Positions 8,102 to 61,480 of a DNA stretch of 64,000 nucleotides are shown one piece after another. The DNA is from Enemella dayhoffiae. Its GTDB lineage: Bacteria; Actinomycetota; Actinomycetes; Propionibacteriales; Propionibacteriaceae. The stretch's first letter is position 1. Each line of letters begins with the position of its first letter. The notes beneath the pieces were generated by a model that was not told where the DNA came from, did not search any database, and worked only from the letters and a program-made list of their open reading frames with translations. A program made the position numbers and the translations under genes. The stretch lies in assembly GCF_002250625.1 (NCBI RefSeq), contig NZ_NMVQ01000043.1, positions 62,001-126,000 on the forward strand, read 5' to 3'.

Positions 8102-9196
8102 TTGTCTGACTCCCCGAAGCCCCAGTCCACCTCCGAGGACCTCTCGGCGACCGAGGACCGGGTCGAGCACCTGCCGCAGCGGGCCTTCGCCGACGAGCCG
8201 GACGCCGGTGGCGTGGCCGCCTTCCGGACCCGGGTACGCCGCTTCGCACTTCCGGGCGTACTGACCCTGTCGGTGCTTGCGGGGCTCGCCCTGGCCGGAG
8301 CCACCGAACCCCGTCCGGACACGAGCATCGCGGCGGCGCCGGCCGCAGCGACCGCCGCGACTGAGGAGCCCCGGGGTGGCGACCAGGTCAGCCGCGACCA
8401 GGAGCGGCCCGCGATCGACACCCCGACCGCCGAGCCCACCCCCGAGCCGGAGCCCCCGGCCGGTCAGCCCGGACCGCCCAGCCAGGCCCCGCTGATGAAG
8501 ATGGCCGAGCCCGCGCCCACCACCAGCGCCCCCTCGGCGGCTGGCACCCGCTATGCCACCGAGACGGTCAACGTGCGCGCCCAGGCGAGCGCGGACAGCG
8601 ACAAGATCGGCTCGGTCAGCCAGGACGACTCGGTCTCGATCACCGGGAAGACAACTGCCGGCTTCAGCCAGATCCTCGTTGATGGCAAGGCGGGCTGGGT
8701 CTCCAGCCAATACCTGTCGAGCAGCAAACCCAGCAGCCCCGCACCCAGCCCGACCGCATCCAAGCCGGCCGCGGCGCCGCGCTCCGCGTCGGGTTCAAGC
8801 TCGTCCGGGTCGGCCGGCTCATCGGACTCCTCGGCCAACGTGTCCAGCTCGGGCAACTGCGCCCCGCTGTCCGGCCTGCAGGGCTCGACCGAGAAGCTGC
8901 ACCAGGTGCTGTGCGGCAATTTCCCCGGTGTCAGCAGCTATGGCGGCGTCCGCAGCGACGGTGACTATCACCACCCGAGCGGGCTCGCGCTGGACTGCAT
9001 GACCTCCAACAGCAGCCTCGGCTGGGCGATCGCCAACTTCGCCCGCGCCAACGCCAGCAGCTTCGGCATCACCCAGGTGATCTATCAGCAGAAGATCTGG
9101 ACCACCCAGCGCTCCTCCGAGGGCTGGCGCGCGATGAGCGACCGCGGCTCGGCCACCGCCAACCACATGGATCACGTGCACATCGCGATTCGCTGA
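8102..9196 (+). CDS. Secreted or anchored SH3-domain protein with VldE/ARB_07466-like C-terminal domain
   Basis: The 364-residue protein has a short cytoplasmic N-terminus, one hydrophobic segment (about residues 48-66), a Pro/Ala-rich spacer and a bacterial SH3 domain (about 155-205: TVNVRAQASADSDKIGSV ... GKAGWVSSQYL). A Ser-rich linker follows, then a C-terminal domain with GGVRSDGDYHHPSGLALD and ending TANHMDHVHIAIR. That last domain matches the actinobacterial VldE/ARB_07466-like module found in secreted cell-wall proteins; its paired His and Asp residues resemble a metal site. The likely place of action is peptidoglycan outside the membrane. The start is TTG with AAGG upstream. A possible -10, TAGATT, lies at 8051-8056. 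A strong hairpin follows the stop. Confidence 0.8.
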   Translation: MSDSPKPQSTSEDLSATEDRVEHLPQRAFADEPDAGGVAAFRTRVRRFALPGVLTLSVLAGLALAGATEPRPDTSIAAAPAAATAATEEPRGGDQVSRDQERPAIDTPTAEPTPEPEPPAGQPGPPSQAPLMKMAEPAPTTSAPSAAGTRYATETVNVRAQASADSDKIGSVSQDDSVSITGKTTAGFSQILVDGKAGWVSSQYLSSSKPSSPAPSPTASKPAAAPRSASGSSSSGSAGSSDSSANVSSSGNCAPLSGLQGSTEKLHQVLCGNFPGVSSYGGVRSDGDYHHPSGLALDCMTSNSSLGWAIANFARANASSFGITQVIYQQKIWTTQRSSEGWRAMSDRGSATANHMDHVHIAIR

Positions 9197-9207
9197 TCCA
9201 GCGAACC
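9196..9207. repeat. Single arm of the 12-bp terminal repeat, overlapping a stop codon
   Basis: ATCCAGCGAACC is identical to the left end of the three 70-bp elements that follow. Here it overlaps the TGA of the SH3 gene and is followed by the hairpin at 9211-9245 instead of the usual element body. Confidence 0.8.
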
Positions 9208-9210
9208 ACC

Positions 9211-9245
9211 CAGCAGGGGCGCCCCGATCCGGGGCGCCCCTGCTG
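9211..9245 (+). terminator. Strong perfect hairpin terminator after the SH3-domain gene
   Basis: CAGCAGGGGCGCCCC and GGGGCGCCCCTGCTG form a perfect 15-bp stem with a five-base loop, 15 bases after the stop codon. There is no long U run, as is common in actinobacteria. Confidence 0.85.
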
Positions 9246-9269
9246 TGTTCTCGGGGTGCCCGCGTGGCG

Positions 9270-9339
9270 ATCCAGCGAACCGTGGGGCCATTGGTCGAAC
9301 CCTGCAGGGGGCGCTGGGTGGCAGGTGGGTTCGCTGGAT
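9270..9339. repeat. 70-bp palindromic element, copy 1
   Basis: It is bounded by perfect 12-bp inverted repeats, ATCCAGCGAACC (9270-9281) and GGTTCGCTGGAT (9328-9339). The 46-bp core contains CCCTGCAGGG. Nearly identical copies follow after 24- and 23-bp spacers. Unit spacings of 94 and 93 bp are not both multiples of three, so this is not a coding repeat. Confidence 0.9.
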
Positions 9340-9363
9340 GGGATTACGGGTGCCCGCGTGGCG

Positions 9364-9433
9364 ATCCAGCGAACCGTGGGGCCATTGGTCGAACCCTGCT
9401 GGGGGCGCTGGGTGGCAGGTGGGTTCGCTGGAT
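9364..9433. repeat. 70-bp palindromic element, copy 2
   Basis: It has the same 12-bp terminal inverted repeats and length as copy 1. The core differs at one visible position (CCCTGCTGGG for CCCTGCAGGG). The preceding spacer starts GGGATTACGGGTGCCCGCG. Confidence 0.9.
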
Positions 9434-9456
9434 GGGATTACGGGTGCCCGATGGCG

Positions 9457-9526
9457 ATCCAGCGAACCGTGGGGCCATTGGTCGAACCCTGCAGGGGGCG
9501 CTGGGTGGCAGGTGGGTTCGCTGGAT
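9457..9526. repeat. 70-bp palindromic element, copy 3
   Basis: This is a full copy with the core version of copy 1 and identical terminal repeats. The spacer before it is one base shorter. After it the sequence passes into CCAGCC-type low complexity. Confidence 0.9.
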
Positions 9527-9528
9527 GG

Positions 9529-9592
9529 CACCAGCCAACCAGCCCAGCCAGCCCACCCAATCGCCCCAGCCAACCAGCCCAGCCCAGCCCAG
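9529..9592. repeat. CCAGCC-type low-complexity tract
   Basis: About 64 bases consist almost only of CCAGC and CCAACC words with almost no G/T runs on this strand. It separates the palindromic elements from the promoter of the 46-residue CDS. No coding frame is supported here. Confidence 0.75.
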
Positions 9593-9627
9593 GGTGAACA
9601 AGGTCATATCACGGAGCGCATATGCGA

Positions 9628-9657
9628 TTGGATTCCGCGAATATCGCGGTGTACACT
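9628..9657 (+). promoter_or_regulatory. Promoter with internal palindrome, for the 46-residue CDS
   Basis: TTGGAT (9628-9633) and TACACT (9652-9657) are 18 bases apart. Between them lies the perfect inverted repeat CCGCGA-ATA-TCGCGG (9635-9649). Placement between -35 and -10 is typical of a repressor or MerR-type activator site. The surrounding ~100 bases are clearly richer in A+T than the window. Confidence 0.6.
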
Positions 9658-9697
9658 GAAATATGTGTTGGGGATGGCCCAACAGTCACTTAATTTG

Positions 9698-9715
9698 CCT
9701 GACCATCACGTCAGG
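9698..9715 (+). promoter_or_regulatory. Leader hairpin before the 46-residue CDS
   Basis: CCTGAC-CATCAC-GTCAGG is a perfect 6-bp inverted repeat in the ~70-base leader. It lies just upstream of the ribosome binding site AGGAAAG (about 9723). Confidence 0.45.
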
Positions 9716-9735
9716 ATGATCCAGGAAAGCGTGTC

Positions 9736-9876
9736 ATGTCCTTCGCTCAGAACCTCCGTCAGCGTCGCGCCGCCAACCGCACCCAGCGTGCCGTCCAGCG
9801 AGCCATCAGCCATGCGGCCACCCCGGCCATGCGCGACGAGCTGATCATCGTCGCGCAGCGTCAGCGCTTGTTCTGA
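9736..9876 (+). CDS. Small Arg/Gln-rich protein of 46 residues
   Basis: The frame starts at ATG 9736, with AGGAAAG about eight bases upstream, and encodes an Arg/Gln/Ala-rich helical protein that begins MSFAQNLRQRRAANRTQ and ends with AMRDELIIVAQRQRLF. It is well below usual gene-calling cutoffs. Support for a real gene is the ribosome binding site, the promoter with a palindrome, the short leader hairpin and a protein-like, highly helical composition (predicted by eye). It faces the end of dgt, 4 bases away. I do not recognise a named family; the basic N-terminus and amphipathic tail would fit RNA binding or a small regulatory partner, but that is a guess. Confidence 0.65.
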   Translation: MSFAQNLRQRRAANRTQRAVQRAISHAATPAMRDELIIVAQRQRLF

Positions 9877-9880
9877 GCCG

Positions 9881-11446
9881 TCACACCCCGCTCGCCCAGA
9901 GCAACCCCGAGGAGGGGCCGAGCCGTCCGGCGTACGCCAACGCCTGCGCGTCGCTCAAGCCGGCCACGAAGTCGATGATGGCGCGGCCACGTGCCATCCG
10001 GGCGACCTCACCCCGATCGGTACGTCCGCGTAGCCACTCGGGGTTCTCCTCGCGGACCCGCTGATAGCCGCGCTCGGCCAGGGTGACCAGGTCGAGCAGC
10101 CGCCGCGGTGCGCGCAGGGCGTCGAACCGATCGGCCAGCCAGGCGTCGAAGGTCTCCACCAGATCGGTCAGCACCATCGACTGGCCCCGTTGCAACATCG
10201 CCAGATCCGGCCGGTGCAGCACGAAATACTGGTGCACGAACTTCAGCACCTGGATCTGGTGCCACTCGAGTTGTTGCACGGTGACCACCGGCATCCGCGC
10301 CCCGCTCGGATCGGCGTTCATCTGGATCGCGGTGGTGAAGTGGTCGATCCAGTCACCGACGAACCCGGAGATCGAGCGGTCGGCTGCCCGTGACCCGTCA
10401 TAGGGGAGTACCAGCACCCCGTCGACGAACTCGGCGCCGACGATCCGCACCGCTTCGGTGAACGCGGAGTCGTCGAACACCCAGTCGTCCTTGTCCCGGG
10501 CGCCGCGCCGCAACCGCTCCAGCCCTGCTCCGGGCGTACGCCACATCGAATCCAGCTCCGCATCGGGTACGCCCGCCCAGCGGCCCTGATCGCCCAGCCA
10601 ACTGCGGAACTCCCCGGAGATGGGGGAGAACTGCAGCACCCCGGAGCGGTGAAAGTCCTCCAGGTCGTGCAGCGAATAGGCGATGTCGTCGGCCAGGTCC
10701 ATCACCGAGCACTCGAGCGTCTGCCGACCGCTCGGCAGCTCGAACCCGCCCAGCACCTCGGCCATCTCGGCCAGCTCGGGCACGTAGGCGTTGAACTTGG
10801 CCGCTCCCGAACCGTGGGCCCCCGGGTTGGCACCGCGGGGCCGGTCCGGCCACTGGCCCGGGTGCGGGTCGGGCAGGTCGAACCGCCCCCACGGATACTT
10901 CAGCACCGCCGCCCTGGTGGCCGCGGTCAGGTTGAGCCCGTCCTGCTCCCCGTGCACCTCCAGCTGGGTGAGGATTCGAAACGTCTGCGCGTTCCCCTCG
11001 AACCCGTCCTCCAGCCCGAACCGCTCGCGGGCCACGCGGTCCAGCGTGCGCTCGCCGAGGTGCCCGAACGGCGGATGCCCCAGGTCGTGCGCGACCGCCC
11101 CCGACTGCGCGACCACGTGATCCAGCCCGCCCCAGCGCTCGATGTCGGCGGGGTCGGCGATCTGGCGCAGCCCGACGGCCAGCGCGCGGGCGAGCGCGGT
11201 CACCTTGATCGAGTGGGTGAGCCGGTTGTGCACCACCCCGTCGGTGGCGTCGGCGGTGACCACCTGGGTCACCTCGGCCAACCGGGCGAAGGCGGGCGCG
11301 AACCGCAGCCGCTCCAGGTCGACCCGGAACTCCGACTCCGCCCCCGCGGTCAGCGGCTGCCACGGCTCGCTCTCCGGGTGCCGGCGCGCCAGGCGTACCT
11401 CCGCCAACTCCTCAAGATCGCGGCCGCGGCCGGTCTGCTCCGCCAT
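9881..11446 (-). CDS. dgt: Deoxyguanosinetriphosphate triphosphohydrolase-like protein (dNTPase)
   Basis: This 521-residue HD-domain enzyme hydrolyses dNTPs to the deoxynucleoside and triphosphate and so limits nucleotide pools. The metal-binding HD residues are visible in NRLTHSIKV (about residue 75) and VAHDLGHPPFGHLGERTL (about 120), with a later VMDLADDIAYSLHDLEDF helix (about 240) carrying the third Asp. The ATG at 11446 was chosen; a TTG three codons upstream is the only alternative. A TACGCT box lies at 11455-11460, eight bases before the start, so the transcript probably has almost no leader. Confidence 0.92.
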   Translation of the reverse strand: MAEQTGRGRDLEELAEVRLARRHPESEPWQPLTAGAESEFRVDLERLRFAPAFARLAEVTQVVTADATDGVVHNRLTHSIKVTALARALAVGLRQIADPADIERWGGLDHVVAQSGAVAHDLGHPPFGHLGERTLDRVARERFGLEDGFEGNAQTFRILTQLEVHGEQDGLNLTAATRAAVLKYPWGRFDLPDPHPGQWPDRPRGANPGAHGSGAAKFNAYVPELAEMAEVLGGFELPSGRQTLECSVMDLADDIAYSLHDLEDFHRSGVLQFSPISGEFRSWLGDQGRWAGVPDAELDSMWRTPGAGLERLRRGARDKDDWVFDDSAFTEAVRIVGAEFVDGVLVLPYDGSRAADRSISGFVGDWIDHFTTAIQMNADPSGARMPVVTVQQLEWHQIQVLKFVHQYFVLHRPDLAMLQRGQSMVLTDLVETFDAWLADRFDALRAPRRLLDLVTLAERGYQRVREENPEWLRGRTDRGEVARMARGRAIIDFVAGLSDAQALAYAGRLGPSSGLLWASGV

Positions 11447-39646: not shown

Positions 39647-39772
39647 CTGATCCACTCGGCCATGCAGCGATGGGGGCGACGACCCCGCAGAGCCACTCAG
39701 CGGCCCGAGAGCCACTCAACGGCTCGTCGCTGAGCCGCGCAGTGGTGTTCGGGCCGCGGAGTGGAAAGAGAG

Positions 39773-61343: not shown

Positions 61344-61480
61344 CCCACTTCGCGTACCGAACGTCACTTCGCGCGCTCAATGTCACTTCGCGCGCTCAAT
61401 GTCACTTCGCGGCTCACCGGTGATCCGCGAGGTGGAACTCGTCACGCGAGGTGAAACTCGGTCCGCGAGGTGGAGTGCTG
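61344..61480. repeat. 19-bp-period array that reverses direction at its centre
   Basis: Four units with core CACTTCGCG start about every 19 bases (61346, 61365, 61384, 61403); two of them continue CGCTCAAT. After GCTCACCGGTGATC the core appears in reverse complement-like form, CCGCGAGGTGGAACTCG (61425), ACGCGAGGTGAAACTCG (61444) and CCGCGAGGTGGAGTGC (61463), again with 19-base steps. It lies between the methyltransferase and PDRP genes. Confidence 0.75.

Follow-up and report, generated by a model that had tools for sequence, protein, structure and literature searches.

We found that each protein of a solitary AbiEi-like family has a private palindrome, which brackets the protein's own gene and is scattered over the genome mostly at gene 3' ends. 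The window, the whole 64,000-nucleotide stretch of the Enemella dayhoffiae genome analysed here, carries three tandem copies of one such palindrome, which we call Family I. With a probability of roughly two in three, these elements are phased sites of a solitary AbiEi-nuclease family that have spread in a REPIN-like manner, probably by means of the protein.

An earlier note on this DNA had described three 70-bp elements with 12-bp inverted ends and a lone left arm upstream of them, and this anatomy was confirmed (Table 1). All three copies begin with ATCCAGCGAACC and finish with GGTTCGCTGGAT, the spacers measure 24 and 23 bp as claimed, and the lone arm overlaps by one base the stop codon of the upstream gene, which encodes an SH3-domain protein. 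The palindrome reaches 76 bp per element, with 15-bp arms around the 70-bp core, and two inner half-sites per element, more degenerate than the outer ones, complete the layout -> -> <- <-. Copies 1 and 3 are identical, and copy 2 has a single mismatch to them; the three also have flanking sequence in common, with a period of 94/93 bp. Given this identity of 99-100% and the common flanks, the triplet arose by local tandem duplication and is a recent duplication of one dispersed copy. A strong GC-rich hairpin resembling a terminator stands between the lone arm and the array; such a hairpin is also found 3' of the SH3-domain gene in E. evansiae, there without elements. Past the array lies a small unannotated open reading frame of 47 amino acids, and the stretch upstream of it (GGTCATATCAC...GCGCATAT...ATTGGATT) is conserved in E. 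evansiae, which suggests a promoter or leader.

Table 1. Positions of the elements, arrays and genes discussed in the text. Positions without a prefix are those of the window; G000 is the E. dayhoffiae genome.
Feature	Position	Strand	Remarks
Lone left half-site ATCCAGCGAACC	9196..9207	+	1-base overlap with stop codon TGA 9194-9196 of the upstream gene
Terminator-like hairpin, distinct from the elements	9208..9248	+	3' of SH3-domain gene
Family I element copy 1	9267..9342	.	70-bp core 9270-9339
Copy 1 half-sites	9270-9281 ->, 9290-9301 ->, 9308-9319 <-, 9328-9339 <-
Family I element copy 2	9361..9436	.	core 9364-9433
Family I element copy 3	9454..9529	.	core 9457-9526
Small unannotated ORF	9735-9875		47 aa
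Family II-type element	39692..39765	.	-> -> <- <-, 19-bp period, arms CCACTCAGCGG
Family II array	61346..61472	.	matches element of the C7 paralog
Family II array half-sites, four ->	61346, 61365, 61384, 61403		CACTTCGCG
Family II array half-sites, three <-	61426, 61445, 61464		CGCGAGGTG
Partner gene of Family I (C12)	G000:C12:220506-221519		bracketed by Family I elements
Three tandem half-sites in predicted CDS	G000:C12:150202-150255		21-bp period
Further -> -> <- <- family	G000:C3:32783-32850, G000:C1:212421-212488		GCGACGCCCCC arms
DUF222-HNH genes	G000:C34:79180-80472, C1:193359-194651, C1:326538-327845, C23:42478-43785		e.g. GCGGAAAGGGCGTC / GACGCCCTTTCCGC; the C34 gene assigned by length and flank only, the other three by Pfam
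Long array after tRNA-Leu gene	L151:1850-2460 (G013)		units of about 21 bp, GCCTCGCT-type arms
Hairpins at Collinsella aerofaciens gene	L328:817-1170 (four, before), 2248-2509 (two, after)		GTCTCGATCTGTAAC...GTTACAGATCGAGAC

The exact 12-mer arm occurs 39 times in the genome compared to no occurrence of a reversed-pattern control, and the element hairpin is more stable than all of 200 shuffled sequences (z = -4.5), a large advantage that applies to both strands; the element is therefore not a product of chance. From 15 copies we built a covariance model, which recovered 16 copies in E. dayhoffiae, all exactly 76 bp long and far above the next match, 13 of them single copies outside the window. 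In E. evansiae (G001), the only sister genome with Family I copies, we found about 36, all but one of 76 bp, whereas the same model found none in three other genomes of the genus. Outside the genus, most of its weak matches were GC-rich hairpins of the ordinary kind; the exceptions were G012 and perhaps an array of G013, which follows a tRNA-Leu gene there. Since many further copies lie elsewhere, the purely local duplication that the earlier note had named as a refutation of its own reading does not apply. A phage origin was considered and rejected, as exact paired copies are absent from IMG/VR and no relatives of the protein were found there.

The ungapped alignment of the copies gives the consensus GCCATCCAGCGAACC-N5-GCCATCCNNCGAACC-CTSSAG-inverse-N5-inverse, with CTSSAG at the centre and the four half-sites at offsets of 0, 20, 38 and 58. 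Extra half-sites have often been added outward, pointing inward, at 20-23, 31-35 or 41 bp, and these spacings lie near whole helical turns (p = 0.00025 compared to uniform spacing). Such helical phasing suggests that a protein binds on one face of the DNA. Three tandem half-sites were also seen inside a predicted coding sequence, where they encode a 7-residue repeat of the SSEPTPR type.

Orthologous Family I elements flank the same single gene in both species, here called C12. Its product has an AbiEi_4 winged helix (E about 1e-5) and matches the AbiEi models of PADLOC, which detect paralogs down to 1e-15; PF13338 is above its cut-off in several paralogs. The C-terminal half contains the invariant residues E226, D258, E269-x-D271-G and K275-Y. 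A profile of eight paralogs aligned over its full length with a Tsukamurella protein (hhalign, E 2.4e-13) that has Pfam DUF559 above the cut-off and a sub-threshold REase_MTES_1575 match; the partner protein thus shows DUF559 homology with conserved acidic residues and a lysine, including the D...E-x-D-G pattern of this family. Unlike in DUF559 and REase_MTES_1575 proteins, the C-termini of the paralogs are not matched directly by Pfam, apart from a weak match in Collinsella (E 0.022), and neither a PDB profile search with the partner protein nor hhalign against Vsr gave a match. On the basis of one remote homolog and the conserved residues, the C-terminal domain is likely a PD-(D/E)XK-like nuclease domain. 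The earlier note had proposed to look for a RAYT-like transposase, and this was not borne out: PF01797 is absent at E<=1 from five genomes of the genus, in a search in which the controls respond in 10 of 14 cases. The partner of the elements is AbiEi/DUF559-like, not RAYT-like.

Family I is not the only such pair. An arm-blind search for the -> -> <- <- layout in 2.04 Mb of the E. dayhoffiae genome gave 15 matches compared to 2 in a mirror control. Two of the 15 are an ordinary tandem repeat, and in most the arms are those of a known paralog. When the flanking elements served as profiles in searches of the same 2.04 Mb, four paralogs proved to have dispersed copies of their own, namely C12 (15 sites), C7 (10, 2 of them flanking), C8 (11, 2 flanking) and C11 (5, 2 flanking). 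Two further features of the window belong here: an element 46 bp past a tRNA-Gly gene with arms that resemble those around the C7 paralog, and an array whose half-sites step by 19 bp and which the C7 element matches. In G012, a member of another genus, an element with the arm GCTTCGCTACC, the same 70-bp layout and a CTGGAT centre is both dispersed and located beside an AbiEi-like gene. Another family with GCGACGCCCCC arms was observed at two sites in E. dayhoffiae; no partner gene was identified for it in the sequence examined. The G013 array, also in another genus, is long and consists of tandem units (Table 1).

The pairing of gene and palindrome extends beyond these cases. AbiEi-like genes occur in six of the seven genomes searched (4 to 10 matches each), and arm-blind scans showed that nested palindromes adjoin many of them. 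At least three 11-mers are common to the 5' and 3' flanks of 18 of 26 paralogs but of only 7 of 117 control genes (p = 1.5e-11), and at least five in 15 of 26 versus 1 of 117; the eight paralogs with little flank sharing include truncated or remote homologs. Among 1,693 called genes of E. dayhoffiae, about 1.4% reach five flank-shared 11-mers. All five of its AbiEi-like genes do so with corrected starts (84, 25, 22, 16 and 5). The repeats are private to each gene, since element 9-mers are common to only 5 of 153 gene pairs. The similarity of element arms and that of proteins correlate weakly at best (Pearson p = 0.009; rank test not significant). A tblastn search of a plasmid collection yielded four distant homologs on records with housekeeping genes, and two of three Tsukamurella genes as well as a Collinsella gene have 25-38 11-mers common to both flanks. 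The latter, an AbiEi/DUF559-like gene of Collinsella aerofaciens, is preceded by four hairpins and followed by two, and this hairpin occurs at 17 places in the 900-kb record. Four DUF222-HNH (13E12-type) endonuclease genes, of an unrelated protein family, are likewise among the top-ranked ones for repeats common to both flanks in the E. dayhoffiae genome; nuclease-type genes in general may tend to be bracketed by palindromes.

The main rival explanation is that the elements are operators and nothing else, bound by an AbiEi-like protein whose nuclease domain is degenerate and which acts as a repressor or roadblock, so that the arrays would form a regulon in which transcription is halted at gene ends. 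AbiEi proteins do autoregulate via inverted repeats, the half-sites are helically phased, and the placement of Family I, determined with gene calls from a simple codon-usage gene caller, favours 3' ends and convergent genes: 23 copies lie between convergent, 22 between co-directional and 3 between divergent gene pairs (23 versus 3, p = 9e-5). The other families showed 10 convergent, 6 co-directional and 4 divergent placements. However, an operator role alone would not lead one to expect elements on both sides of the protein gene, a location away from promoters for most dispersed copies, turnover of copies between sister species and invariant residues of catalytic type. Taken together, we consider this explanation unlikely, about one chance in a handful.

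The same placement, together with folding, could point to bidirectional intrinsic terminators or to RNA hairpins that stabilise 3' ends. The hairpin is very stable on both strands, the copies usually lie 2-45 bp past a stop codon and fill convergent gaps of 89-123 bp, and paired positions covary among the E. evansiae copies. Yet no T-run follows the element stems, a terminator scan matched only a hairpin at 9230-9242 and none of the elements, and the terminator-like hairpin that adjoins the array is separate from them. In addition, each arm type belongs to a particular linked gene, and the half-sites extend on one side only. In the copies of E. dayhoffiae itself, pairing is no better than in shuffled alignments and no covariation rises above them, for which reason RNA structure was rejected as the sole constraint; subfamilies can explain the covariation in E. 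evansiae. A role as terminator or stabilising hairpin is thus improbable. The processed hairpin RNA proposed in the earlier note finds weak support, with arms conserved as sequence and one-sided tandem half-sites that do not fit a hairpin alone. A search for a processed small RNA or Rfam family gave nothing near threshold in 8900-9900.

The comparison of the two sister species bears on mobility. The E. evansiae arm reads GCGATCCA[G/T]CGAAYC, and CCATCCAGCGAACC of E. dayhoffiae is found in none of its arms. A single region carries elements at positions that are orthologous between the two species, and there each species has its own arm type. Elsewhere, E. dayhoffiae has an element downstream of dnaA where E. 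evansiae has a 15-bp gap and three other relatives also lack one, and at the E. evansiae locus that corresponds to the window array none of the three copies is present. Species-specific arms at the orthologous region, together with presence or absence at other sites, indicate that positions turn over and that arms change in concert. Terminal inverted repeats, a fixed length and dispersed intergenic copies would also fit MITEs that belong to a conventional insertion sequence whose inverted repeats measure 12-15 bp. Against this, the flanks of 35 E. evansiae and 14 E. dayhoffiae copies have no excess identity, so that the target duplications sought are absent, and no clean insertion junction was readable at the compared orthologous sites. 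Moreover, the inner half-sites repeat the ends, the bracketed gene encodes an AbiEi-like protein rather than a transposase, and exact arms are confined to the elements, tandem arms and three spots in coding regions; an exact-arm search of the genome found no insertion sequence or other autonomous element with the same ends. We regard conventional MITEs as very improbable. The dispersed palindrome implied by the MITE/REP-like reading of the earlier note was right in kind, while the target duplication, RAYT and matching insertion sequence that would go with it were missing. A tandem duplication of purely local meaning can be dismissed, as the window copies are near-identical with common flanks but are joined by the 13 further copies in E. 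dayhoffiae and about 36 in E. evansiae.

The closest resemblance is to REPIN/RAYT pairs. REPINs are palindromic doublets that are dispersed and constant in length (71 and 110 bp); they show compensatory changes, form tandem clusters that include flanks plus an extra half, and accompany a single-copy enzyme gene located next to its own repeat type, with several types per genome (Bertels and Rainey 2011, PMC3116915). All these traits recur here. RAYTs are thought to spread REPINs. In contrast to that system, a Y1/HUH transposase was not found in any of five genomes, the protein linked to the elements is AbiEi/DUF559-like, and each hairpin, while inverted in its arms, fixed in length and dispersed, consists of four half-sites of about 12-15 bp in 20-bp steps instead of two REP stem-loops. 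Since the Y1 transposase is absent, the elements do not belong to the REPIN/RAYT class. The protein side resembles the AbiEi antitoxins of type IV toxin-antitoxin systems (AbiE, Rv2827c), with an N-terminal winged helix and inverted-repeat arrays before the gene; AbiEi binds two 23-bp inverted repeats in S. agalactiae, and Rv2827c binds four (PMC7319586). Unlike in these systems, the repeats also lie downstream of the gene and over the genome, the C-terminal domain is DUF559-related, and no toxin gene was found in the annotated neighbourhoods checked: the neighbours of the Tsukamurella and Collinsella genes are annotated as ordinary, unrelated or hypothetical, and none is named an AbiEii (DUF1814) toxin.

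In the reading that we favour, phased sites of an AbiEi-nuclease family, the 70/76-bp element would be a nucleoprotein site in which one half-site is present four times in phase. By analogy with AbiEi on its inverted repeats, the winged helix would bind these half-sites on one face of the DNA. The nuclease-like domain may then act at the palindrome, presumably by cutting, and, in analogy to REPIN/RAYT pairs, thereby spread elements to new places; the window triplet would stem from one such dispersed copy, duplicated in tandem later.

The pairing of AbiEi genes and palindromes looks like an undescribed counterpart of REPIN/RAYT pairs. Our search of the open-access literature, which left subscription papers and preprints outside its scope, found nothing relevant that links AbiEi or DUF559 to palindromic repeats, and no link of DUF559/REase_MTES_1575 to dispersed palindromes. 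More tentatively, and at somewhat less than even odds, the solitary AbiEi-DUF559 proteins of Actinomycetota may constitute a second, independently evolved REPIN/RAYT-like class, in which every nuclease recognises a phased palindrome of its own, maintains two copies of it around the encoding gene and copies it to other parts of the genome, mostly to gene 3' ends, while arm and protein specificity change together. In actinobacteria, the main annotations given to AbiEi-like and DUF559-type genes are hypothetical protein and orphan antitoxin. If each of them owns a private dispersed palindrome, its cognate DNA site can be read from the flanks of the gene. It would then become testable what spreads and maintains REP-like repeats in genomes without RAYTs, and the family would be a second, independent example of a nuclease that is encoded by the host and lives with a population of tiny palindromes.
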